64,000 nt of DNA from Clostridia bacterium (lineage in GTDB: Bacteria; Bacillota; Clostridia; Oscillospirales; Acutalibacteraceae), in NCBI GenBank assembly GCA_017403185.1, contig JAFQON010000036.1:1-64000 (forward strand), read 5' to 3'. Shown here in pieces: positions 1-11,034 of this stretch. The translations under genes and the position numbers were made by a program. Under the pieces are notes generated by a model, which was not told the origin of the DNA, searched no databases, and saw only the letters and a list, made by a program, of their open reading frames with translations. Within the stretch, counting starts at the first letter, position 1. Every line of letters starts with the position of its first letter.

Positions 1-56
1 TCTTCAACGCAGTCAGGGATTTATTCTCCCTTGCAGCTGCGTAAAACAAAACTTTT

Positions 57-140
57 CAACAAACCCTCCTTATTGCACACAGAGAACAATGGGTGTCTTG
101 CAGACAAAAGATGCCCATTCCTCTGTGCAGAGGGTTGTTG
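57..140. repeat. Long imperfect inverted repeat (hairpin)
   Basis: The outer arms CAACAAACCCT (57-67) and AGGGTTGTTG (131-140) pair. Inside them CACAGAG (78-84) pairs with CTCTGTG (121-127) and AATGGG (88-93) pairs with CCCATT (114-119). A small GTCTTGCAGAC hairpin sits at the tip. This gives one nested stem of about 84 nt. There is no T-run directly after it, so it is not an obvious terminator. It could be a structured RNA, a small mobile-element remnant or an intergenic repeat. Bases 1-355 hold no convincing protein gene; the short open frames on both strands here are products of this palindrome. Confidence 0.55.
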
Positions 141-194
141 ACAAACTATTATCTCACTTTCTGTGCAATTTTCCTTCTTTAAAAATTTGTCTGC

Positions 195-224
195 AAAGAG
201 CGTATCCGCTTGGGTACGCTCTTT
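195..224. terminator. Intrinsic terminator-like hairpin, copy 1
   Basis: AAAGAGCGTA (195-204) and TACGCTCTTT (215-224) form a perfect 10-bp stem with a small CC/GG extension in the loop. The A/T ends make it work in either direction. A near-identical hairpin is at 1533-1562. Confidence 0.6.
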
Positions 225-271
225 GTGCGCTTTCACCAGCCACAGCGCCGAATCTTTGTGCGCAATACGCG

Positions 272-301
272 TTGACGTAACAAGTTAACTCCTGGTACAA
301 T
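272..301 (+). promoter_or_regulatory. Promoter candidate for the first small-gene cluster
   Basis: TTGACG (272-277) and TACAAT (296-301) are separated by 18 bp. A CAGAAGA/TCTTCTG hairpin (309-328) lies in the leader before the AAGGAG site at 341-346. Confidence 0.45.
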
Positions 302-355
302 TATTCTGCAGAAGAAATATATCTTCTGTAATAAAAACACAAGGAGTTGATTGAT

Positions 356-430
356 TTGTTCAGCCTTTTAAAATATGCCAAAATCATCTTTTGTTTGAAA
401 AGGGGGTATGATAATGCCCGGATTCATTGA
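356..430 (+). CDS. Possible 24-residue leader protein (TTG start)
   Basis: A TTG codon at 356 lies 9 bases after AAGGAG (341-346) and opens a frame to the TGA at 428-430. The peptide begins LFSLLKYAKIIF and has a hydrophobic N-terminal half and a basic C-terminal part. It overlaps the start of the next gene at 414, which would fit translational coupling. It has no recognisable family. The support is only the well-placed Shine-Dalgarno site, so it may be a leader rather than a functional protein. Confidence 0.3.
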   Translation: MFSLLKYAKIIFCLKRGYDNARIH

Positions 431-698
431 AGAGTTTTATTATGGCAACATCGAGCCGCAAGAGCTTAACCGAGAATTCAGAGCTGAATTGAATCAAAAG
501 CTCAACAAACTGCTTTGTGTTCAGAAAGAGCTTCGTGATGCATTACCTCCCGAAAGGAAAGAACTGTTAGCTGAATACGATAAATTGAATTTGGATTTGT
601 TAACAACCTGTTCAGCAGACTCGTTTACCAGAGGGTTTAGAATCGGCTCGGAATTCACCATGGACACATTCGGCAGAACATCACGGAATAATTTATAA
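414..698 (+). CDS. Small DUF6809-like protein
   Basis: The product is 94 residues from the ATG at 414. That start lies 7 bases after GGGGG (402-406), whereas the ATG at 408 is too close to the site. The N-terminus reads MPGFIEEFYYGNIEP, and a Phe-x-x-Gly-Phe-Arg-Ile-Gly segment lies near residue 70. From memory this is the pattern of the DUF6809 family, small Firmicutes proteins of about 90 residues often found in mobile regions. The middle is charged and probably helical. No function is known to me. The gene ends TTATAAGGAG, so its stop codon is fused to the ribosome site of the next gene, indicating one transcript. Confidence 0.65.
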   Translation: MPGFIEEFYYGNIEPQELNREFRAELNQKLNKLLCVQKELRDALPPERKELLAEYDKLNLDLLTTCSADSFTRGFRIGSEFTMDTFGRTSRNNL

Positions 699-711
699 GG
701 AGTGCATTTAT

Positions 712-879
712 TTGACTAAAAATCCTCAACAAAATAATAACCGCAAGGAATTTGCTACACCCGAAGACCGCCTTATCGAAGACATCATTGCCTACGGCAA
801 AAGAGAAAGAGCAATGAAGGCAAAACTCGCAAAAATGAAAGAACAACAGCTCAAAGCAAAAGGAACTGTACTTTCATAA
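712..879 (+). CDS. Hypothetical 55-residue basic protein (TTG start)
   Basis: The frame opens with TTG at 712, 9 bases after the AAGGAG that overlaps the preceding stop codon, and closes with TAA at 877-879. The peptide is Asn/Gln-rich at the start, acidic in the middle (EDRLIEDIIAYGKRERAMK) and Lys-rich at the end, and is probably helical. I do not recognise a family. The tight spacing to the DUF6809-like gene suggests co-transcription. Bases 880-941 after it hold nothing visible. Confidence 0.5.
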   Translation: MTKNPQQNNNRKEFATPEDRLIEDIIAYGKRERAMKAKLAKMKEQQLKAKGTVLS

Positions 880-941
880 ATCACTGTGCGTTAAAAGATT
901 TATTTTGCATATAATGCTATTGTAAGCGCCTGTTTTTTATG

Positions 942-970
942 TTGACAAAATTAACAGAGTTGCTTATAAT
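942..970 (+). promoter_or_regulatory. Consensus promoter of the type III antitoxin RNA
   Basis: TTGACA (942-947), a 17-bp spacer and TATAAT (965-970) match the sigma-70/SigA consensus exactly. Transcription should start near 977 and produce the structured RNA below. Strong promoters are typical of type III antitoxins, because the RNA must be in excess over the toxin. Confidence 0.85.
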
Positions 971-976
971 AAATGT

Positions 977-1117
977 AGTGGGTGTATCTCAGCCCTTGAA
1001 TGAGAGATTTATTGAGTGAGCTTCTCTTGGCTCTATACAAGAAAGTTACAAGTGAGTGTTTCGCCACTCGTAAGTGCGAGCATAACTCAGGGGCAGGATT
1101 TTTCTTGCCCCTGTTTT
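977..1117 (+). ncRNA. Putative type III antitoxin RNA (ToxI/CptI/AntiQ-like)
   Basis: This stretch of about 140 bases lies between a perfect promoter and an intrinsic terminator, directly upstream of a ToxN/AbiQ-family toxin, which is the layout of type III toxin-antitoxin loci. It has self-complementary pieces (GAGA with TCTC around 1000-1027; GAGTG at 1054-1058 with CACTC at 1065-1069; CTCG with CGAG at 1067-1080), and the last two overlap as in a pseudoknot. I cannot see clean tandem repeats of the kind ToxI shows, so it may be one unit or diverged units. The RNA would both bind and inhibit the toxin. The name rests on position, not on a database match. Confidence 0.65.
1088..1117 (+). terminator. 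Leaky terminator between antitoxin RNA and toxin
   Basis: CAGGGGCA (1088-1095) pairs with TGCCCCTG (1106-1113), followed by TTTT. In type III loci this terminator lets most transcripts stop after the antitoxin RNA while a fraction read on into the toxin gene. Confidence 0.8.
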
Positions 1118-1133
1118 GCGTGAAGGAGAAATA

Positions 1134-1529
1134 ATGGATAACATAAAGCTTTATGAAATCAATAGCAGATATATTGATTATCTTGTGCCTTTTGCTCCGC
1201 ATTCATCGTTCAAACCCAAGCATACACAAATGAAAGAGGGCGTTGATTTCCTCAAAATAAAGAATTATGCTGTTATTAACCTCAATAATATGTTTCCCGT
1301 ACCGCTGAGCGAATGTAGCTATGTTGACATAAATAAAGTCAAAGACATGCATTACAAAGCATTGCTGCTTGCAGAATACAGATACATAAAATCAATTCAG
1401 GAAAAAATCAGAAAAAATGCTGCTACCGTTTATAACCACAAAATAAAGAACGGCAACTCAACCGCCCTTGCAAAAAGATGCAACGATTTTTCAGTATTAG
1501 AAAAAGCCTGCGTTGAATATAAAAAGTGA
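1134..1529 (+). CDS. ToxN/AbiQ-family type III toxin, apparently internally deleted
   Basis: The product is 131 residues from the ATG at 1134, 5 bases after GGAG. The N-terminus (IKLYEINSRYIDYL) matches the first strand and helix of ToxN/AbiQ endoribonucleases. The C-terminal two-thirds (KIKNYAVINLNNMFPVP, then EYRYIKSIQEKIRKNA and LAKRCNDF) also fits. Family members are about 165-170 residues, with a segment between these parts that ends in a YFAPLSS-like motif. Here residues FAPH run straight into SSFKPKH, so roughly 30 residues are absent. The missing segment is where ToxN carries conserved active-site residues. I infer the toxin may be inactive or altered. Upstream are the RNA antitoxin and terminator; downstream is a terminator. 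Confidence 0.75.
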   Translation: MDNIKLYEINSRYIDYLVPFAPHSSFKPKHTQMKEGVDFLKIKNYAVINLNNMFPVPLSECSYVDINKVKDMHYKALLLAEYRYIKSIQEKIRKNAATVYNHKIKNGNSTALAKRCNDFSVLEKACVEYKK

Positions 1530-1532
1530 TTT

Positions 1533-1562
1533 AAAGAGCGTATCCTAATGGGTGCGCTCTTT
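1533..1562. terminator. Intrinsic terminator-like hairpin, copy 2
   Basis: AAAGAGCG (1533-1540) pairs with CGCTCTTT (1555-1562), directly after the toxin stop codon. It closely repeats the hairpin at 195-224, including the following TTTGTG. Confidence 0.7.
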
Positions 1563-1636
1563 GTGTTCTGCAAGCGAGAAGATGTTAACTATTCACGCAA
1601 AAACATACGATTTTTAAAGAATTTGTCACATTTTGG

Positions 1637-2146
1637 ATGTATTATAGAAAAATAAACCCAAAGGAGATGCTTTTTATTTTACCCTATATTTTAATTCTTG
1701 CAATAATTATTTTAACTCCCTTTTATTTGGTGAATACTCCATTTACCCATGTTGATAGTGCTGTAATTGATGAAGTGAAAAAGGACGGTCTGATTCATTT
1801 CACTACTCCCGAAAATGCATCAGCAATAATGGAAAGCGGAGAGTTTATAGGTTCAACGGCTGGTTTGGTATTTCCTGCAACGGTTCTTTTAGGGAAACAG
1901 GTATGGACTTATCAGTTTAAAGGTTTTGATGATGTTGAGCAGAAACATAATTATCTTTTGAAGAAAATAAAAGTCAAGAAAGATGCAGCGAATTTCAGCG
2001 TATGCTTAAAACTTTCGGGATTTGAAGAACGCGATTGCCAAAAAATCTGCACAAGAATACTGCGCGATAAACCCATTGTTTTCAAAACCAATAATCTCAA
2101 ACCTAAACATATAGAGATTTTGAAAGAATGGGAAGTTGATGAATAA
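1637..2146 (+). CDS. Membrane-anchored protein of unknown function
   Basis: The product is 169 residues. Residues about 10-31 form one hydrophobic helix after a basic N-terminus, so the remainder is either secreted and anchored or cytoplasmic. The soluble part begins near residue 45 with GLIHFTTPENASAIMESG. This resembles the opening motif (His-hydrophobic-Thr, then a helix ending in Ile-x-x-Ser-Gly) of ADP-ribosyltransferase-fold proteins such as DarT or HYD1-type toxins. The resemblance is weak and I do not see the later catalytic motifs. The start is uncertain: AAGGAG lies inside the frame near 1660, directly before an internal ATG. A terminator follows at 2160. The gene stands alone between the toxin locus and the defence operon. 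Confidence 0.55.
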   Translation: MYYRKINPKEMLFILPYILILAIIILTPFYLVNTPFTHVDSAVIDEVKKDGLIHFTTPENASAIMESGEFIGSTAGLVFPATVLLGKQVWTYQFKGFDDVEQKHNYLLKKIKVKKDAANFSVCLKLSGFEERDCQKICTRILRDKPIVFKTNNLKPKHIEILKEWEVDE

Positions 2147-2159
2147 TAGAAAAAAGAGT

Positions 2160-2205
2160 AACCTCTATGAGTTGACTTTTAATCAGCTCATAGAGGTTGT
2201 TTCTT
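2160..2205 (+). terminator. Strong intrinsic terminator
   Basis: AACCTCTATGAG (2160-2171) pairs perfectly with CTCATAGAGGTT (2187-2198), followed by GTTTCTTT. It ends the gene at 1637-2146. An open frame that crosses it is not a gene. Confidence 0.85.
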
Positions 2206-2349
2206 TATATCAAAATATTGTTTGTAAGATTTCGAGCAAAGTTCATAGTGAATTTGCACATATTAAGCGCTTGTTTTTTGTCGAAAAAAGAGAAAAGACA
2301 ATTTTTTCAAAAATTTTTGCGTAACATTTCGCGATTTTTGTCATATATA

Positions 2350-2439
2350 TTTAGTTGAATGGTGTTTGTAACTATAATTTTAATAAAAGTATTGGAGGGA
2401 GCATATAATGCCATAAAATTTTAAAAATGAATTCATTTT
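2350..2439 (+). promoter_or_regulatory. Promoter, two-codon minigene and palindrome ahead of the sensor/UppS-like operon
   Basis: TATAAT (2373-2378) lies 17 bp after TTTAGT (2350-2355). Downstream, GGAGGG (2394-2399) sits 8 bases before ATG-CCA-TAA (2408-2416), a complete Met-Pro-stop frame with an excellent ribosome site. A perfect 16-bp palindrome AAAATGAATTCATTTT follows at 2424-2439. The remaining 130 bases up to the coding start show nothing clear. The region could hold a regulatory minigene and operator, or be the scar of a deleted gene. The whole gene-free stretch is 2147-2569. Confidence 0.5.
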
Positions 2440-2569
2440 ATTACAAAATTTGGTGCAATATTATGGTTAAATTGTGAAAGAGTTTTTGATTTAATATCTT
2501 ATATCTCTTTAGCTTATAAAATACAATTGCTCCAAACAATTAGTTTAAGTGAAAAGAGATGATTTTATT

Positions 2570-3559
2570 GTGAATACTAAAGGATTAAAAATAGGTAATG
2601 TGTGCATTAGCTCTGTATTTTCACGCGAAGCTCGGTTTAAAGATTTTCGTTATGCTGCGTATAAAGCTGCAAAGGATCTTGGGTATGAGGTTTATAGGAA
2701 TCCGGAATATACTGGCGCAACACAGGAGAGCTTTGAAAAATATTTAAAAAACAAAAGACCTATATTTGTTTTACTGGTAGGAGAAACAAAATCAAGTGTT
2801 GTAAAAGAAGAGTGTAGCATGGCATTATCGCTTGGCTTGCCAATAATCACTTTATTGAAAACAACAAACGGAAAAATCACACCTCAAACCCAAAAAATTA
2901 TGACTTCTATCTCCAAGGCAACTTTTGAAAAGTCCTGCAGTTGTTTTTCGGATTGCGAAGATTTATATGCAGCGGTTCAACAAAGATTAGCAGAGTATGA
3001 AAATGAACGCAACATTACTACCGCTAATTTTATTCCTCAACATGCTCAAATTTATACAAGTTCTGCGGAAATAGTACAAAGTGCAAAAAAACGTGTAGTA
3101 CTTTGTCAAAGAACATCTTCATTATTACTTGGACCAAGAAAAGGGGTAAGTTTTGAAAAAGAATTCTATGACAAAATATTTGAATGGATAAAAACCTCAG
3201 ATGATGAAATGGAATTATTACATATTTTTTCATGTGATGAAACAAAGAAAGAATTAAAAGGCACCAACTATAATGTTAATATTGCAGAAAAAAGACTTGT
3301 GGATTTATGCAAAAAAGCAAAACTCTCTCTTGTTATAAGAGCGGTAAAACAAGAGATAATGCCTTGCGTCATATGCGACAATGATCTAATGGTTATGTTG
3401 CATTTAGGCGTTCAAGAGTACAATTTGTTACTTTCACATTATATCACTGATGGAGCGACAGTTTCAAAAGTGGTTGCAGATCTTCAGGGAATGGATGGAG
3501 AACTACTCTATTCCAGTGAATCTTTATCAACATCAGATATTGAAAATTTTTATAAATAG
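2570..3559 (+). CDS. DUF4062/TIR-like N-terminal domain protein, putative defence sensor or effector
   Basis: The product is 329 residues from the GTG at 2570, which has AAAAGAG upstream; an in-frame GTG at 2549 lacks such a site. Residues about 7-95 have the pattern of the DUF4062/TIR-like fold: a first strand ending in VCISSVFS, a helix rich in charged residues, a strand with YEVYRNPEY, then RPIFVLLVG followed by VVKEECSMALSLGLPIITLL. DUF4062 domains occur in many bacterial conflict proteins. The remainder (about 150-329) begins IYTSSAEIVQSAKKRVVLCQRT and is an alpha/beta domain that I cannot name. No membrane segment is present. The stop is 16 bases before the UppS-like gene, so the two are one operon. 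Being AT-rich and next to a Gabija-like module suggests a defence role; the biochemical role is unknown. Confidence 0.65.
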   Translation: MNTKGLKIGNVCISSVFSREARFKDFRYAAYKAAKDLGYEVYRNPEYTGATQESFEKYLKNKRPIFVLLVGETKSSVVKEECSMALSLGLPIITLLKTTNGKITPQTQKIMTSISKATFEKSCSCFSDCEDLYAAVQQRLAEYENERNITTANFIPQHAQIYTSSAEIVQSAKKRVVLCQRTSSLLLGPRKGVSFEKEFYDKIFEWIKTSDDEMELLHIFSCDETKKELKGTNYNVNIAEKRLVDLCKKAKLSLVIRAVKQEIMPCVICDNDLMVMLHLGVQEYNLLLSHYITDGATVSKVVADLQGMDGELLYSSESLSTSDIENFYK

Positions 3560-3575
3560 AATAGAGGTTTTTGTT

Positions 3576-4223
3576 ATGGAAATCAAGCATTTGGGCATAA
3601 TTCCAGATGGTAATCGTCGTTGGGCACGAGAAAATAATGTTACATATGAAAAAGCATATGATTTGTTTTCTAATCATATTTGTAATATTATTAAAGAAGT
3701 AAACAAAAATAACATTGAAATGCTTACATTTTATGTGGTAAGCAAGGAAAATTTAAAACGAAATAACAGTGATGTTTTTGATGTTCTTCAATCAGTTAAG
3801 AATATGTTGCAAAAAAAACTTCCTTCAGTAGCCAAACAGTTAAACATTCAAGTAAAATGTATAGGTATAGATTCTGTTGGAAACGATGAATTGATAGAGG
3901 CCGCAAAGTATATAGAGAGTTTTTGCAAGACAAATACAGGAATGACTGTTAATTTACTCATTGGATATAATCCTTTTGATGAAATAAACGACATAGTTTG
4001 TAAAGGGCAAAAGATATCTATACACAACCTGTCAGTGCCTCAATATGTAGATGTATTGATAAGAACGGCGGGCGGACCGGTGCGTCTAAGTAATTTCTTA
4101 CCACTTCAGTGTGGTTATGCTAACATTGAGGTGATGGAAAATAAATTTCTTGATGTTAAATGCGAAGCTATTATTTCGGCTTTTAAAAAATATAAAAATG
4201 TTAATCCAAACTATGGAAAATAA
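3576..4223 (+). CDS. Divergent cis-prenyltransferase (UppS-like) protein
   Basis: The product is 215 residues from the ATG at 3576, with AGAGG 8 bases upstream. It aligns along its length with undecaprenyl diphosphate synthase. HLGIIPDGNRRWA matches the substrate-binding DGNGRWA motif with the catalytic Asp kept; LTFYVVSKENLKR matches LTLYAFSSENWNR; TGMTVNLLIGYN and VDVLIRTAGG..RLSNF match the C-terminal motifs. By comparison with the E. coli sequence from memory, Arg39 and His43 are both replaced by Tyr, Trp75 by Leu, and the metal-binding Glu213 by Asn. It is shorter than the usual 240-250 residues. The housekeeping uppS normally sits with cdsA/frr/pyrH, so this is not that gene. Pairing with a DUF4062/TIR-like gene suggests a specialised, perhaps defensive, role. 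Confidence 0.75.
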   Translation: MEIKHLGIIPDGNRRWARENNVTYEKAYDLFSNHICNIIKEVNKNNIEMLTFYVVSKENLKRNNSDVFDVLQSVKNMLQKKLPSVAKQLNIQVKCIGIDSVGNDELIEAAKYIESFCKTNTGMTVNLLIGYNPFDEINDIVCKGQKISIHNLSVPQYVDVLIRTAGGPVRLSNFLPLQCGYANIEVMENKFLDVKCEAIISAFKKYKNVNPNYGK

Positions 4224-4350
4224 CTAATTATCCTATCATAAACATATATGTTTGGGGCCGATACTCTCTTGAAAATTTGTATTAAAGCATGTCTCAATTT
4301 TGGAGGTTATAAAAATACAGAGTGAACTGAATATGAACAGTAAAAGCTAA

Positions 4351-4380
4351 GCCCGTAGGATTTCCTGCGGGCTTCATAAA
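4351..4380. terminator. Terminator between convergent defence operons
   Basis: GCCCGTAGG (4351-4359) pairs with CCTGCGGGC (4364-4372) with one G-T wobble. The rest of 4224-4500 shows no gene. Confidence 0.6.
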
Positions 4381-4500
4381 TATACAGAGGTTCAATAATT
4401 ATTTCATTATATTGTTTTAAATCAAGCATAAAGCACCAAATCTCTAATTAATTCTATAAGAAAGCTTTTTTCAATAGTGTAAAACATTGAGGTTATTTCT

Positions 4501-6237
4501 TTAGTTATAATCAAAACTTACGCTTCTTAATTCATCTGTCGGAGTATATTCATTCCCCTTTTTGGTAAAGTGTCCTTTTTCACTAAACAAGTATAAGTTT
4601 TCTTTTGCTCGAGACGAAAGAACATAAAGCAATTTTTGGGTTTCGTTATATCTTAGAGATTTCTTCTCAGGTTTAGTTATATAGTCCCAATGTGGCAATA
4701 TTCCATTTAACAGCCCAAAAGCAATGACTGTTTTATATTCTTCGCCTTTGACTCCGTGAATTGTATTAACCACTATTCCGTGCTTTTCTGCAAAGCAAGC
4801 AAAAAAAGCTTCATATGATGAAGAGAGTTTGTATTTCTCTATTCTTTCATTACACTTTTCTACAAAGCTTTCAAAAAGAACCATTAATGAAGTTTCTTCT
4901 TCTATTTTTAACCCCATTGCCAAAAAAATTTTTTGAACTGCATCTTTATAAAACAGCATGCCGTTTTCTAAAGTCGGAAAGCAACGATTTATAGCATTTA
5001 ACAAACTATAATTGTCGAAAGAACCATCAATACAAAGTTGGAAATCATATTTTAAAATGCTTAAAACTTCTGTTGCCGTTTTCTTTCTTGAACGAACATA
5101 TTTTCCGGATTTTGTAAACAACAGTTTTGCTAAAAGATAAAAAGGGTTCATGGGGTCATATTTAAAAGCACTAATCTCTGGAGCATCAAAACTAACAGTC
5201 GGTAAACTTTCTCTTAAGTTTTTGGCAACAGAAAAAATTTGATACCATTGTGGGGCTACGACACAGATCTCATTTTCTGAAATACCGTTTGCCAACTCTT
5301 TTTCAATTATATTTTTTATTCTGTTTGTCAATTCTGATATTCCAATTGAAGTATCATAGTTGATAACTCCAAATGTATTTTTGTTTTCAGACAAAGAGTA
5401 AACACCAGTTTTATCAATTTCAAAATTTGTATAAAAATCAACTATGCGTTGAGTTGAACGATAACATCCCGAAAGTGTATCTTCTTTAAAGTCAATGCCA
5501 AAAAGCTCTTTTATTTCTTGAGTGTTTTTAGCGACAGCTCCAATGCCGCCAAATATAGCTTGATTTGTATCGCCAACAAAAACCACATTTATTTTGCTAT
5601 TATAGTGAACTATTTCCGATAATATTTTGTACTGCAATTCATTGGTATCTTGAAATTCATCAATATGAAAACTTCTTATAATAGCTGAAATATTTTCTGC
5701 TATAAACGGGTTTTCTTTTAAAAGTTTCAGGGATAATGTTAGTATCGAATCGAAATCTATTTCTTTCCGTTCAATAAGTCTGTTTTGATATTTTTCTTTA
5801 ATTTCAGGATATTCAAGCGGATTATCATAACCATAGTCGATACTTAATTCTTCCGCAATTTCTTTACAATATGCTCTACTGATATATTCATCAATAACTT
5901 TGTAACCATTTTTTAGATTGTCGGAATACATTGCATATGGTCTTATTATGAAACTCATACAGAACTGATGGATAGTTCCGCTCCAAACAGATGATAAATC
6001 TATAGCCATATCATCAAGTCGGCGATATATCTCATCAGCTGCACGGTTAGTATAAGTGATTGCAATATTATATTTTCGGGAATTTTTATATTTCTCTTGT
6101 AAATAGGCAAGTCTATATGTTATCAAGCGTGTTTTACCGCTTCCGGGACACGCTGTAAGCACATAGTTACAATCACTCATACATATTTCACGTTGCTTAT
6201 CATTCAAATGTTCTAAAAACGTAGGTTGTTCAACCAT
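4501..6237 (-). CDS. UvrD/Rep-type superfamily 1 helicase, Gabija GajB-like
   Basis: The product is 578 residues. The motifs are Q-motif-like LNDKQREI (about 11-18), Walker A TACPGSGKTR (28-37), motif Ia TYTNRAADEI (61-70), the DEFQDTN Walker B (193-199), GDTNQAIFGG (222-231) and the C-terminal VNTIHGVKGEEY. Housekeeping PcrA/UvrD is about 720-770 residues, so this is a shorter, specialised helicase. It overlaps the OLD-family ATPase gene by 8 bp, the pairing that defines Gabija (GajA nuclease with GajB helicase). In Gabija, GajB senses DNA ends or nucleotide state and works with GajA against phage. AT-rich composition agrees with transfer. It is longer than the Bacillus GajB of about 490 residues. 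Confidence 0.8.
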   Translation of the reverse strand: MVEQPTFLEHLNDKQREICMSDCNYVLTACPGSGKTRLITYRLAYLQEKYKNSRKYNIAITYTNRAADEIYRRLDDMAIDLSSVWSGTIHQFCMSFIIRPYAMYSDNLKNGYKVIDEYISRAYCKEIAEELSIDYGYDNPLEYPEIKEKYQNRLIERKEIDFDSILTLSLKLLKENPFIAENISAIIRSFHIDEFQDTNELQYKILSEIVHYNSKINVVFVGDTNQAIFGGIGAVAKNTQEIKELFGIDFKEDTLSGCYRSTQRIVDFYTNFEIDKTGVYSLSENKNTFGVINYDTSIGISELTNRIKNIIEKELANGISENEICVVAPQWYQIFSVAKNLRESLPTVSFDAPEISAFKYDPMNPFYLLAKLLFTKSGKYVRSRKKTATEVLSILKYDFQLCIDGSFDNYSLLNAINRCFPTLENGMLFYKDAVQKIFLAMGLKIEEETSLMVLFESFVEKCNERIEKYKLSSSYEAFFACFAEKHGIVVNTIHGVKGEEYKTVIAFGLLNGILPHWDYITKPEKKSLRYNETQKLLYVLSSRAKENLYLFSEKGHFTKKGNEYTPTDELRSVSFDYN

Positions 6238-8368
6238 TTAAAAGTTCCCTTCGGTTTATTACTAATTGCGAAAACATATCAGAAGGATAATCTTCAACAA
6301 AACTATCTATTATCTTTGTTTTTTCTTCAAGTTCAACAGTGTGCTTAACTTGATCTCGTAATTCTTCAAATTCTGCATCTTCGTAGCAACTCAAACGATA
6401 GGAAAAAATTTTCCAAAGAATAGTGAAACTCAAAACATCTTGAGATGCAAAAACAATTGATTTTAATAAGTATTGCGGTAATATTGCACTACCATTAATT
6501 TCAGATGCCAAAAGAGTGGCATACCATCCTTTACCAATAGCTTTTGCTAAAGTTAAAACAGAGTCATATCTCTCTGCATCGCTTCCAAATAAATGAGACG
6601 TATGCTTTTCAATTGCATATTGTTTTTCATAATGAGATTGTATTATTGTTTTGATAAACTCTCGATTTTCTTGGATAGCCGCAAAGTCCACTTCAAATGT
6701 ATATGGTGCATAAAACATTTCAACCCAAGGATTATCGGAAAACAAGTCATTAAGTTTTTCTTTTCTCGTTTCCCCTCGTTTAGCTGCTTCTTCATTGCTT
6801 TTTTTAGCTCCAGCCACTACAGCATCTAAATCCGTAACTATTGCACAGTGCCTTCTTAACCGTTGCGGAGAAAAAATGGAGGCAATATTCTCAAATCCCA
6901 CGCTTCCGACATTGATTAATCCTATTCCTAACTCATCGAGCGAAACACCAAATATATTTTTCACTAATGAGGGCAATAAAATTTCTTCGCCGTCACCTTC
7001 AACCAGGATTACTCCTTTAGAAAACAAAAGAACAGATCTTTTTGCATCTAAATATCGCTCTAAACACAAACTCAATGGAAATTCTTTTTGTTTAAGTCTG
7101 TCAAATCCAAAATCATCTAATCCAGCACTTGGATACATTACTTCGGTTATTGAATTATTAATTTTCAACACATTAACTTTTGTTATATCAGAAACCTCAG
7201 ATATTTGATTAGAATGAGTTGTCATAATAACTTGAGTATAATCTTTAGCTACTTTTAAATTATCAAACAATGTTTTCTGAATATGTGTGTGGATGTGAGC
7301 TTCTGGCTCTTCTATAATCATTATGTTGAGTATTTCATGATTTCTGTTATACTCAAACTCTACAAGTTTCAATGCAATATATAAAATATTTAAATGGCCC
7401 AAACCCAACGAATCAACATCATCTTGATTTGAAGGAGAAACAGCTAAATATTTTGCTAAAGAGTCTATACTCTCTTTCAACTTGGACTCAACCTTGATCT
7501 CCGGTGAATACACCAGTCCAGCTATTTCATTTAGTTTTCCGTTTACTTCCTTACCAATATTTGAAATCTGCGGAATAGACGAAATAATTTGGTTAAGCTC
7601 TTGTATCTTTTGAGTTATGGAGTCTTTTGATTCGTTGGCAACATCTTTTTGTATTGTGTCAAAAACTCTTCTAATAGGATTGCGTGGCTTTCTGAGTTCA
7701 GATTCAACATCTCTTAAAGCATCAATAAATACTAAAGATACATGTTGCCAAACGCTCAAAATGTCAATTCTATTACCCATAATCTCATAATCAATTTTTT
7801 CTGGATCTACATATTCGCCCTGTTCGAGATCGCCAACTAAAGCATTATAAATTTCCGGATTGGTATAATCAGCTTGTGACCGAGATGTGTAAAAGAATTC
7901 ATAATCAGTTAACGAAATACCTGCTCTGATACGTTCAAATTCCTCTTTGGTTTTTGCTTTATGTAAATCGTTTCGAATTTTTTTGATTGGCCTAATGAAA
8001 AGCGTTACCGTTCCATAATTGTTGTCTTCACACCTTATGAAAGACTTTAAAAAGTTTTGGTTTTCTTCAGAAGGAATAATCTCTGCACATATCTCATTTG
8101 TTTTGTCGTCATCTGTTATTTCATCAAAAAAAGCAGATACAATAATCCAGTGTCCTCTCCAATCACCCAATGAATCAGAGAAATCACTTTCTTTTAGCCT
8201 TTTTGTATTATAAAAGAAAGTACTATCAAGTAAAACTCTAATAGCAGTCATAGCATTGCTTTTTCCAGAATCATTTTCCCCAATTATTGTGTTAGCACCC
8301 TTATCAAATTTAAAAACAGAAGATTTTAAATTCTTATAATTTACGATTTGTATGTACTTGAGATACAT
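6230..8368 (-). CDS. OLD-family ATP-dependent endonuclease with TOPRIM domain, Gabija GajA-like
   Basis: The product is 712 residues. The ABC-type ATPase half has Walker A GENDSGKSNA (30-39), a degenerate signature DSLGLGHLNI (319-328), Walker B IMIIEEPEAHIH (349-360) and the H-loop His in TTHSN (around 385). The TOPRIM half has the conserved Glu in ILVEGDGEE (454-462) and TDLDA (512-516), supplying the DxD metal site. This order is that of OLD nucleases and GajA. GajA cuts DNA when nucleotide levels fall during phage replication. It is longer than the characterised GajA (about 578), mostly in the C-terminal helical tail. It lies 44 bases after the HEPN gene and overlaps the helicase gene, forming one operon. 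Confidence 0.82.
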   Translation of the reverse strand: MYLKYIQIVNYKNLKSSVFKFDKGANTIIGENDSGKSNAMTAIRVLLDSTFFYNTKRLKESDFSDSLGDWRGHWIIVSAFFDEITDDDKTNEICAEIIPSEENQNFLKSFIRCEDNNYGTVTLFIRPIKKIRNDLHKAKTKEEFERIRAGISLTDYEFFYTSRSQADYTNPEIYNALVGDLEQGEYVDPEKIDYEIMGNRIDILSVWQHVSLVFIDALRDVESELRKPRNPIRRVFDTIQKDVANESKDSITQKIQELNQIISSIPQISNIGKEVNGKLNEIAGLVYSPEIKVESKLKESIDSLAKYLAVSPSNQDDVDSLGLGHLNILYIALKLVEFEYNRNHEILNIMIIEEPEAHIHTHIQKTLFDNLKVAKDYTQVIMTTHSNQISEVSDITKVNVLKINNSITEVMYPSAGLDDFGFDRLKQKEFPLSLCLERYLDAKRSVLLFSKGVILVEGDGEEILLPSLVKNIFGVSLDELGIGLINVGSVGFENIASIFSPQRLRRHCAIVTDLDAVVAGAKKSNEEAAKRGETRKEKLNDLFSDNPWVEMFYAPYTFEVDFAAIQENREFIKTIIQSHYEKQYAIEKHTSHLFGSDAERYDSVLTLAKAIGKGWYATLLASEINGSAILPQYLLKSIVFASQDVLSFTILWKIFSYRLSCYEDAEFEELRDQVKHTVELEEKTKIIDSFVEDYPSDMFSQLVINRRELLNG

Positions 8369-8412
8369 TGTTTATTCCCTCTAATCACATATTTTCTTTT
8401 TATCATTGTTTT

Positions 8413-9369
8413 CTATATAATGATATTTTCTGGAATCCAACCATTTTGCTCACAAATAAATTCATATACTCTTTTAAACGCAACTTTAATATCTGTAATA
8501 TCTTTTTTCAGAGATTCAGTTCCGTAATCTACGTTTATTTCTGTTTTATGAATCATTGCGTGTCGACATTCAAACAATCGATTTATTTGTTCATACAAGG
8601 ATTCTTTTCTGTTTTTGTACGGCTTCTTAAGTACTCTTCCCAAATCATATTTTTTATCAATATCCATAAAATTGGAGTTGATTTTTTTAATGTTTTGAAA
8701 AGACAATGTTCTTGCGAGTGCTTCTTCTAAAGATTTGTTACCATTACTTATATCTATCAAATCAAACGGAGATAATTTTACATTTTTAATTATTTTTTCT
8801 TTGTTTTCTGAATATTTCAAGAGCGCAACATAAGTAGAACGAAAAAAGTCTTCCATCAAAGAACAAAGATATGCTAAATAAACATTAGCATTAAAAACAC
8901 TTGGTGTGGGGATTCCCCAAGAACTCATCTGTATCTCGCCTTCATTGTCGAGGGGATATTTGCTTAACGAATATAACAAGAGCGAAAAATTGTTATCTAA
9001 TTTTTTAATAGCAAAACAGCAACCGCTTTCTGCTCCTTTAACCAATTTTTCAACTTTAAAATAACGATTTTTCCCCATATCTCCAACAAACCAAGCATTA
9101 CAGTACTTTTTAAAAGCTCTTATTGTATCGTTTTGTTTCTTTATATCATAACCACTTGCAAAGATTTGTGTTCGAACTCTATAGATCAATTCATCAGTGT
9201 TCTCATCACATTTCCATACACATACTCCCGAAAAATACTTATACTCTTCATCGTTTCCAAAATAATAAAAATCGTTACGCTTTTCAAAATCTAACATAAA
9301 CAAAAGATTTTCAATGGATTTAACAGAATGATTCTTTTTATCTATGTGTACATAAGCATCATTTCCCAT
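8413..9369 (-). CDS. HEPN-domain protein linked to the Gabija-like module
   Basis: The product is 318 residues and begins MGNDAYVHIDKK. The first about 170 residues form no family I know. The C-terminal helical part contains CRHAMIHK, with R269 and H274, the R-polar-x3-His motif of HEPN ribonucleases, followed by a long helix. HEPN domains often act as RNA-cleaving toxins or structural partners in defence systems. The gene has a ribosome site (AAGGAG) before its ATG and is first in the minus-strand operon with the OLD nuclease and the helicase. I infer an accessory toxin or sensor; the classical Gabija has only two genes. Co-transcription with rlmD upstream (36-base gap) is possible but unlikely to be functional. 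Confidence 0.65.
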   Translation of the reverse strand: MGNDAYVHIDKKNHSVKSIENLLFMLDFEKRNDFYYFGNDEEYKYFSGVCVWKCDENTDELIYRVRTQIFASGYDIKKQNDTIRAFKKYCNAWFVGDMGKNRYFKVEKLVKGAESGCCFAIKKLDNNFSLLLYSLSKYPLDNEGEIQMSSWGIPTPSVFNANVYLAYLCSLMEDFFRSTYVALLKYSENKEKIIKNVKLSPFDLIDISNGNKSLEEALARTLSFQNIKKINSNFMDIDKKYDLGRVLKKPYKNRKESLYEQINRLFECRHAMIHKTEINVDYGTESLKKDITDIKVAFKRVYEFICEQNGWIPENIII

Positions 9370-9405
9370 ATATTCTCCTTATAAAAAGACAACACCTAAA
9401 TTTAA

Positions 9406-11034
9406 TTATACCATCTTAAAATACTTCAACGCATCGGTAATGGCGTCTTCTTTTTCTTTCGGGCAGTTGGGGACACGGTGGCCGTCTTTGCCTTTATTAT
9501 AGCATTCTCTTTCGATGATTCCGTGTTTTACTTTAACCTGAGCTATATATAACGAAGAAACCTTCAGTCCGAACTTTTTGAACACATATTCCTTGATTTC
9601 GTCATAGGTAGCTTTACTTTCAGCGGCTGTAATATCCAGCTCATCAAGGTCTAAATCTATGTCAATATACGCGTCGGGTTTGCGTTGGGACAACTGGACA
9701 ACCGTTTCGCAATGCCCTGTTCTCGGGAACATATCGACGGGGGTGGCTTTTTCGGCGGTATAGCCGAGGTCTTTGAAAATTCCGCAGTCCCTCGCAAGGG
9801 TTGCGGGGTCGCACGAAACATAGACAATTCTTTCAGGGTTCATCTGCACCGCCGTGCTTATCATCTCGGGGCTGCAGCCCTTTCTTGGCGGGTCAAGAAT
9901 GATAACATCGGGGCGGACTCCCTCGTTTTTCAGCATCTCCGCCGCCTGCGCTGCATCGCCGCAGATGAAGCGGGCATTCTTTATTCCGTTAAGCTGCGCA
10001 TTGATTTTGGCATCTTCTATTGCCTCGGGCACGATTTCTACGCCGATTATTTCCTTGGCGTTTTTTGCCATTGAAAGACCGATTGTGCCCGCACCGCAGT
10101 AGAGGTCAAGCACGGTTTCACCGCCCGTAAGCTGAGCATATTCAGCCGCCTTATTATAAAGCTTTTCTGCCTGATTGCGGTTGACCTGATAGAATGAAAG
10201 CGGTGAAATCCTGAATTTCAGCCCGCAGAGAATATCCGTTATGCAGTCGTCGCCCCACAGCGTGCGGCATTCACCGCCGAGAATAACATTCGTATCCTTT
10301 GTGTTTGAATTTACAAGGATGCTTCTTATTGAATTTTCTTTTTTCAAAAGAGCTTCAATCAGCCTGTCCTCTGCAGGCAGCTTTTTGCCGTTGATAACGG
10401 CGCAGACCATGATTTCTCCGCTCGCAGTGCCTTTCCTTATATAAATATGCCTCAGCAACCCCTTGTGCGTTGTTTCATCATAAACCGAAACACCGTTTTC
10501 TTTGATGTAATCCGAAAAAATGCCGAGAATACCCTCAAACTCCTCGGGCTGAAGCAGGCAGCCGGGGCAATGCACAACCCTGTGGCTGTGAGGTGAATAA
10601 AAGCCCGTTCTGATTTCGCCGTTTTCATATGCCACGGGGTATTGCGCCTTGTTGCGGTAATGTTTGTCGCTTTGCGCAGCAATAATCGGCTCAAATTCGG
10701 GCATTACTCCGCCTATGCGTCTGAAGCATTCGGCAACATGGTCCGCTTTTATTTTTGCCTCTGCTTCATATGTCATATGCGAAAAAACACAGCCTCCGCA
10801 CCTGAGATAAACGGGGCATTCGGGCTGAATGCGGTCATGTGACGGGGTAATGACGCTCTCAACCTTTGCAAAGGCATAGGTTTTTTTCACCTTAAGAATA
10901 TGCGCCGTTATTTCGTCACCCACTGCCGTTGCAGGCACGAATATTGCCATGCCCTCATGCCTGCCCACTCCGCTGCCGTTTGACGAGCAGGACTCTATCT
11001 TAAGTTTAATTCTGTCATTCTTTTTAAGCTCCAC
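9406..11034 (-). CDS. rlmD: 23S rRNA (uracil-C5)-methyltransferase RlmD/RumA with C-terminal extension
   Basis: The product is 542 residues. An N-terminal TRAM domain (about 1-60) is followed by the iron-sulfur ligands in CPVYLRCGGC (C-x5-C-x2-C) and a later HCPGC. The SAM motif is LDLYCGAGTIGLS, with the DPPRKGC motif and the catalytic Cys in YVSCDPATLARD. It methylates a uracil C5 in 23S rRNA. The last about 90 residues (from DAYIDIDLDLDELD) are not part of the E. coli enzyme: an acidic linker and then a basic domain ending HRVPNCPKEKEDAI. I recall this tail from clostridial homologues; its function is unknown to me. The GC-richer composition marks the start of the core genome after the island. 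Confidence 0.85.
   Translation of the reverse strand: MELKKNDRIKLKIESCSSNGSGVGRHEGMAIFVPATAVGDEITAHILKVKKTYAFAKVESVITPSHDRIQPECPVYLRCGGCVFSHMTYEAEAKIKADHVAECFRRIGGVMPEFEPIIAAQSDKHYRNKAQYPVAYENGEIRTGFYSPHSHRVVHCPGCLLQPEEFEGILGIFSDYIKENGVSVYDETTHKGLLRHIYIRKGTASGEIMVCAVINGKKLPAEDRLIEALLKKENSIRSILVNSNTKDTNVILGGECRTLWGDDCITDILCGLKFRISPLSFYQVNRNQAEKLYNKAAEYAQLTGGETVLDLYCGAGTIGLSMAKNAKEIIGVEIVPEAIEDAKINAQLNGIKNARFICGDAAQAAEMLKNEGVRPDVIILDPPRKGCSPEMISTAVQMNPERIVYVSCDPATLARDCGIFKDLGYTAEKATPVDMFPRTGHCETVVQLSQRKPDAYIDIDLDLDELDITAAESKATYDEIKEYVFKKFGLKVSSLYIAQVKVKHGIIERECYNKGKDGHRVPNCPKEKEDAITDALKYFKMV

Follow-up and report, generated by a model that had tools for sequence, protein, structure and literature searches.

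Two adjacent genes near the start of a Clostridia bacterium contig (JAFQON010000036.1, of which positions 1 to 64,000 form the window analysed here) are a candidate two-gene abortive-infection defence module carried on a mobile island. Gene A would provide a TIR-like NAD-processing arm and gene B an isoprenoid-enzyme arm. We tentatively give this reading a probability of about 0.4. The tight gene layout, the family and retained residues of protein B, the controls of the TIR profile match, the island and its defence cargo argue for it. Against it stand the lack of independent recurrence, the weak TIR signal, the changed near-invariant residues of B and the C-terminal domain of A, which has no family match.

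Genes A and B are co-oriented and both frames are intact (Table 1). An upstream in-frame GTG at 2549 offers an alternative start for A, which adds seven residues and yields a 336-residue version of the protein. The sequence-only reading had placed a cis-prenyltransferase homologue 16 bases behind the first gene; the coordinates are confirmed and B belongs to PF01255. The two-gene operon proposed there is likewise upheld as an operon-like layout, with both genes on the same strand, a 16-nt gap and no terminator-like site in that gap in the scan of 2100-4600. A promoter scan of the locus returned 11 matches, compared with 12.4 expected from shuffles, and a promoter claim is therefore withheld. 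Rfam and tandem-repeat scans of the locus were empty. In the leader of A, a strong Shine-Dalgarno sequence (GGAGGG) is followed by a Met-Pro-stop mini-ORF (2394-2416), which is either a leader element or a gene remnant.

Table 1. Positions of the A-B genes, the surrounding defence genes and the island in the window.
Feature	Position	Strand	Basis or remark
Low-GC transferred island	1-9405	.	GC content, identity to genome G1019; left end out of view, contig begins at base 1
ToxN/AbiQ toxin of type III toxin-antitoxin locus	1116-1529	+	profile match
Two terminator-like hairpins upstream of A	2156-2202, 2317-2334	+	terminator scan of 2100-4600
Gene A (ORF A)	2570-3559	+	329-aa protein, GTG start
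Domains of protein A	residues ~1-145 (putative divergent TIR-like N-domain); ~155-329 (C-terminal domain without family match)	+	local TIR profile
A-B gap, 16 nt	3560-3575	+	Shine-Dalgarno-like AGAGG at 3563-3567, 8 nt before B start
Gene B (ORF B)	3576-4223	+	215-aa protein, ATG start
GajB, Gabija helicase (UvrD)	4501-6237	-	defence-model match
GajA, Gabija ATPase with OLD-like TOPRIM domain	6230-8368	-	defence-model match
Weak RiboL-PSP-HEPN similarity	8413-9369	-	21.1 bits, below cut-off 28.4
RlmCD/RumA-like 23S rRNA methyltransferase	9406-11034	-	named from sequence by eye; 3' end borders island

Positions 1-9405 are a recently transferred low-GC island. The GC content of this segment is 32.7%, compared with 46.6% for positions 9406-64000, and the AT-richness previously ascribed to both genes is borne out (33.6% GC in A and 31.2% in B). 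The first 9.8 kb of the window match contig C5 of a same-genus genome, G1019, at 96.5-97.8% identity, and the island itself is 97.8% identical over 8,661 bases. The remaining parts of the window that are alignable to the compared 100 kb of C5 show 74-85% identity and lie in a different order. Between the two genomes, A differs at 2 of 990 bases and B at 1 of 648.

The right end of the island likely marks its integration site, the 3' end of the RlmCD/RumA-like gene. In both genomes, the island adjoins the 3' end of such a gene, but the two genes are different paralogues: the gene in the window is 80% identical to G1019:C5:207936-209288, whereas the island of G1019 sits at C5:59823-61235, which is only 53% identical to the gene in the window. 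Identity at the island edge is 99-100% before the stop codon, falls to approximately 90% in a shared C-terminal extension and then to approximately 60%. This extension of approximately 90 residues is common to the different paralogues (window 9406-9680; G1019:C5:59823-61235), as if integrating elements re-supplied the end of the gene. Among five other RlmCD-like genes of relatives with readable ends, it is absent in four (L063, L065, L066 and L070) and present in L061, which comes from a genome without A. Upstream in G1019 are a 643-residue serine-recombinase-like ORF and a tyrosine-integrase-like ORF, both named by eye. The 3' end of rumA is described as an established site at which mobile elements insert, among them integrative and conjugative elements (ICEs) with serine recombinases (PMC11578063), and ICEs are reported in rumA of Streptococcus suis (PMC12218517). 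The low GC content, the approximately 98% identity and the position at the RumA/RlmCD 3' end therefore indicate that A-B travels on a mobile island.

The strongest case for a role of A-B in defence comes from this setting. As first read from the sequence, the pair lies between a type III toxin-antitoxin locus, represented by ToxN/AbiQ, and a Gabija-like module (4501-8368). The GajB-GajA pair was matched with E-values of 1e-193 and 2.6e-236 on the strand opposite to A-B, with an OLD-like TOPRIM domain in GajA and a UvrD helicase in GajB. The HEPN-like gene is located on the Gabija strand just upstream of gajA and is possibly a Gabija add-on. Compared with its counterpart in the otherwise near-identical island of G1019, the ToxN of the window lacks 31 residues, in frame, and the type III toxin may therefore be inactive here; the ToxI repeats expected near ToxN were not detected by the Rfam and tandem-repeat scans of the locus. 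Elsewhere in the same genome, three ThsB_TIR-type genes occur, none of which is A (G000:C31:114350-114610, C20:79269-79544 and C17:10530-10676); the C31 gene exceeds the cut-off only if the frame takes in its neighbours.

Sequence comparison assigns B to the cis-prenyltransferases as a very divergent member that is distinct from the housekeeping UppS. B matches Pfam PF01255 over residues 9-214 of 215 with 115.6 bits (cut-off 27; E 3e-33), and its best matches in the PDB are UppS enzymes, the first of which is 3ugs (E 2.8e-20). The score of 92.6 bits against the UppS equivalog TIGR00055 is below the cut-off of 109.55. The genome has its own UppS on another contig (G000:C10:36164-36835; 280.4 bits), so B is an extra copy. 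In 391 same-class genomes, the best other match of B reaches E 1e-19 with 33% identity, and the 29 best others lie at 30-36%. In a tree of 51 sequences, comprising B, 28 UppS-type proteins and 22 proteins of a clade of short cis-prenyltransferases, B forms a branch of 4.26 changes per site that is close to neither group, a placement that the tree program flagged as unsure.

Thirty alignment columns show at least 95% conservation among 50 other cis-prenyltransferases, and B retains 23 of them; each of the 50, tested in the same way, retains no less than 91% of such columns, with a median of 100%. The near-invariant columns retained include D11, G12, N13, R15, W16, A17, N59, R62, R163, R170 and S172. 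B carries R14 as well, with the DGNRRWA motif and a C-terminal NYGK end. Conversely, B departs from the housekeeping UppS by His to Tyr28, Trp to Leu60, Glu to Asp66 and Glu to Asn183, and from a near-universal residue by Phe to Val55. The lost near-invariant positions could mean weak or altered activity, and an altered substrate or product seems likelier than a dead enzyme. Retention of 23 of 30 such columns at this divergence suggests long selection on B. B resembles UppS and other cis-prenyltransferases in its PF01255 family, DGNRRWA motif, R163/R170/S172 and C-terminal xGK tail, and differs from UppS in its score below the equivalog cut-off, its changed conserved residues and its location beside a TIR-like gene in a defence island.

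Comparison with the DHDDS complex is consistent with a catalytic B. In a collinear phmmer range (query 4-82 on 27-105 of 6w2l), D11, R14, R15 and R62 of B correspond to D34, R37, R38 and R85 of DHDDS, and R170/S172 probably correspond to R211/S213, as judged by motif only. As described in the available text of PMC7573591, D34 of DHDDS holds Mg2+, R37, R38 and R85 bind the pyrophosphate of FPP, and mutation of D34, R37 or R38 lowers the activity. The Mg/pyrophosphate residue set of cis-prenyltransferases (D, RR, R, R and S) is present in B as D11, R14, R15, R62, R163, R170 and S172. According to the same text, the tail of NgBR consists of an RxG motif with a terminal Lys after it, and in yeast Nus1 the Arg is replaced by Asn (PMC7573591), to which the NYGK end of B can be compared. 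Unlike the NgBR/Nus1-DHDDS complex, B has its active-site residues and its tail together on a single chain, which gives it the look of a homodimer-type enzyme. An inactive NgBR-like subunit was considered and is unlikely, as D and RR are kept. The part of PMC8131916 available describes a cis-prenyltransferase of Methanosarcina mazei, MM_0014, that O-prenylates small alcohols; cis-prenyltransferases thus accept acceptors other than IPP, and an unusual product of B is chemically possible.

Protein A is more difficult to place. No model of Pfam or NCBIfam scored above its cut-off, and the sole PADLOC match was ThsB (E 0.02; residues 63-104 of the 336-residue version). A local TIR profile was built from 19 of the 23 ThsB_TIR loci of the same order; L099 and L114 (no sequence) and L100 and L101 (fragmentary or misread) were left out, and two members, L097 and L110, are neighbours on one contig. 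The N-domain of A scores 11.0 bits against this profile, which 0 of 400 shuffles matched (best shuffle, 5.0), and full-length A scores 8.5 bits. When 338 ORFs of at least 120 residues from the window and other loci were ranked, the two copies of A occupied the first and second positions (8.5 and 8.1 bits), followed by an ORF with 3.6 bits. The match spans only the second half of the TIR domain. Within it, SSVVKEECSMAL of A is aligned with the profile segment SkwVnkEielAl, and this weak profile match puts Glu81 on the position of the TIR catalytic Glu; in a MAFFT alignment, Glu81 also meets the Glu of DUF4062 proteins. A divergent TIR-like N-domain with Glu81 at the catalytic position is therefore supported, not proved, and the shuffle and ORF controls leave room for another alpha/beta fold.

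The N-domain had been described from sequence as DUF4062/TIR-like. The TIR-like half of that description stands as a weak signal above the shuffle and ORF controls, and the DUF4062 half is rejected. Pfam DUF4062 gave no match at a reporting limit of E 10, with the HMMER filters removing most matches above approximately 0.1, and pairwise comparisons of the N-domain with four DUF4062-type proteins were not significant (in the best, 40 of 500 shuffles were as good). A local DUF4062 profile of six sequences scored A at 2.1 bits, which 6 of 400 shuffles equalled, and A was outside the top ten of the 338 ORFs ranked with it. The C-domain (residues ~155-329) is a slight outlier against L075, a protein below the DUF4062 cut-off, with 10 of 500 shuffles as good in one of eight pairwise tests. 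Searches gave no convincing match for this domain. A PLD-like fold, an impression gained from the strand pattern alone, was set aside because no search backs it.

The distribution of A is very narrow. At the level of the order, A was found in 1 of 394 genomes, and in the class in 1 of 321 at E <= 0.001, in both cases its own. Within the family it occurs in 2 of 398 genomes, its own and G1019, and is absent from five other same-genus genomes searched. A further 29 genomes of the class gave weak matches only (E 0.003-0.87); nine of 19 weak-match loci were translated and look like sugar-binding or unrelated proteins, none of them resembling a relative. At the sensitivity used, tblastn detected no A in plasmids or phages, and a search of viral contigs, which reaches close relatives only, was likewise negative. 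Over all collections, the G1019 copy on JAFSFB010000001 is the only relative found, with the assembled-contig search covering close relatives. The single spread of A-B is a recent transfer and not an independent pairing. No TIR-like ORF was present beside 49 other cis-prenyltransferase loci, and no cis-prenyltransferase was present at 32 TIR/DUF4062 loci, within flanks that are only approximately 1.5 kb long in many cases. Given one transfer-linked relative and no pairing at other loci, there is no independent recurrence of A-B, and recurrence in many unrelated genomes, which the sequence-only reading had named as support, is not seen, as A occurs only in its own genome and one of the same genus among those searched.

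The relatives of B bear on an unlikely alternative, in which B is accessory housekeeping-type cargo, such as a spare or antibiotic-bypass polyprenyl synthase or an enzyme that alters the envelope, and A, though adjacent, is unrelated to it. Of 391 same-class genomes, 19 have more than one cis-prenyltransferase match (two or three) at E <= 1e-12; six of 20 short-clade loci were read and have ordinary metabolic surroundings, and isoprenyl transferases occur on plasmids with no visible defence context in the one plasmid locus read. However, B lies 16 nt behind A inside a defence block and groups closely with neither UppS nor the short clade (placement unsure). A link of B to the short clade itself was rejected, as the six loci read are metabolic and the tree, with the same reservation about the long branch, places B outside. 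The 22 short proteins of the same class (L015, L030 and L035-L054) have Tyr for the UppS His and Asp for a UppS Glu. No close relatives of B were found in viral contigs. Searches of plasmids and phages returned 96 and 18 records, respectively, all distant and below 60% identity, with best identities of 28.1% and 27.9% among the matches listed. One phage protein (L123), the product of gene 102 of Streptomyces phage Gilgamesh, is an unlabelled cis-prenyltransferase homologue that is 22.9% identical to B, and its gene adjoins membrane-protein genes.

In the two-gene defence module that we favour, A is assigned the sensing and NAD-processing arm because Swarozyc follows that pattern. As described in the available text of a preprint, Swarozyc is a bacterial TIR-like NADase of the DUF4062 type; it carries an auxiliary domain, senses a phage portal and acts by NAD+ loss (PMC13174449). 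It resembles A in combining a TIR-like domain, which is putative in A, and its conserved Glu with an auxiliary domain, and A-B in its patchy, horizontally moved occurrence within defence islands; in contrast, KpSwz works on its own and its auxiliary domain is of the HTH/winged type (PMC13174449, in the same text), and A precedes a cis-prenyltransferase gene. A further difference is that A has no DUF4062 match. Thoeris, composed of the TIR protein ThsB and its partner ThsA, is a two-gene TIR-based layout, as in the proposed A-B module. The only PADLOC match of A is ThsB (E 0.02), and the TIR profile derives from ThsB_TIR loci. However, the partner in A-B is a prenyltransferase, and no ThsA (SIR2-SLOG) partner and no SIR2 or SLOG domain was found in the eight proteins scanned (A, B and six neighbours).

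The C-domain of A would receive an infection cue or a small molecule, after which the TIR-like domain would consume NAD+ and the cell would stop. Because the main pyrophosphate residues are kept, B would most simply be the chemical partner, taking part in this response as an active enzyme with prenyl pyrophosphates of the FPP/IPP type as its substrates. In CBASS, a nucleotidyltransferase controls a TIR effector. Our first choice is that B would control A in this manner by making or removing an isoprenoid, and disturbed envelope-precursor metabolism during infection would then release A.

The same components could also act in the reverse, Thoeris-like order, which is somewhat improbable. A would then make an NAD-derived signal, and B would be the effector that drains FPP/IPP or makes a polyprenyl pyrophosphate of the wrong length, thereby halting wall synthesis. 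TIR proteins that signal are known from Thoeris, wall synthesis depends on the C55 carrier, B retains most of its active site and its changed residues could suit a different product. This order is less consistent with the large C-domain that A bears, which simple signal-makers of the ThsB type are not known to have, and with the composition of B, in which PF01255 covers residues 9-214 of 215 and no ligand-binding domain is added.

A toxin-antitoxin-like defence or addiction pair, in which B would bind A and hold the TIR-like domain inactive whatever the chemistry of B, is improbable. Such a pair would be compatible with the adjacency of the genes and with the presence of a toxin-antitoxin locus on the same transferred island; however, the active-site residues kept in B point to chemistry rather than mere binding, and A has an unusual size for a member of a toxin-antitoxin system. 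The least probable of these readings is that A-B is not a working unit but has decayed or was left on the island by chance: no more than two copies are known, and their two (A) and one (B) base differences are too few to show selection, yet both frames are intact and the near-invariant columns kept by B despite its high divergence point to long selection.

The two-gene defence module would join TIR-based defence, which is known, to a candidate new partner, a cis-prenyltransferase. Among the papers listed from the literature searched, in which subscription papers were mostly outside coverage, none links a phage-defence, toxin-antitoxin or TIR system to a cis-prenyltransferase, UppS, prenyl or undecaprenyl, which agrees with the earlier statement that no described antiviral system was known to use a cis-prenyltransferase fold; no paper on a lipid-carrier pool guarded in this way was found within the same coverage. 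Immunity in bacteria, plants and animals relies on TIR proteins as a main arm, and what is sensed is set by the partners of these proteins. If the module is real, a prenyl-transferring partner would connect immunity with the lipid-carrier cycle supplying the cell wall. A bolder version is doubtful, namely an isoprenoid-based immunity in which a TIR-like NAD-processing protein works with a dedicated cis-prenyltransferase, and either the product of this enzyme or its substrate pool would serve as the signal or as what is guarded; disturbance of the undecaprenyl/prenyl-pyrophosphate pool by a phage would then lead to NAD loss. A-B is easily testable, as it consists of two small genes with one predicted key residue each. 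If the isoprenoid-gated reading is true, A-B would be an immune system based on isoprenoid chemistry, the first of its kind.
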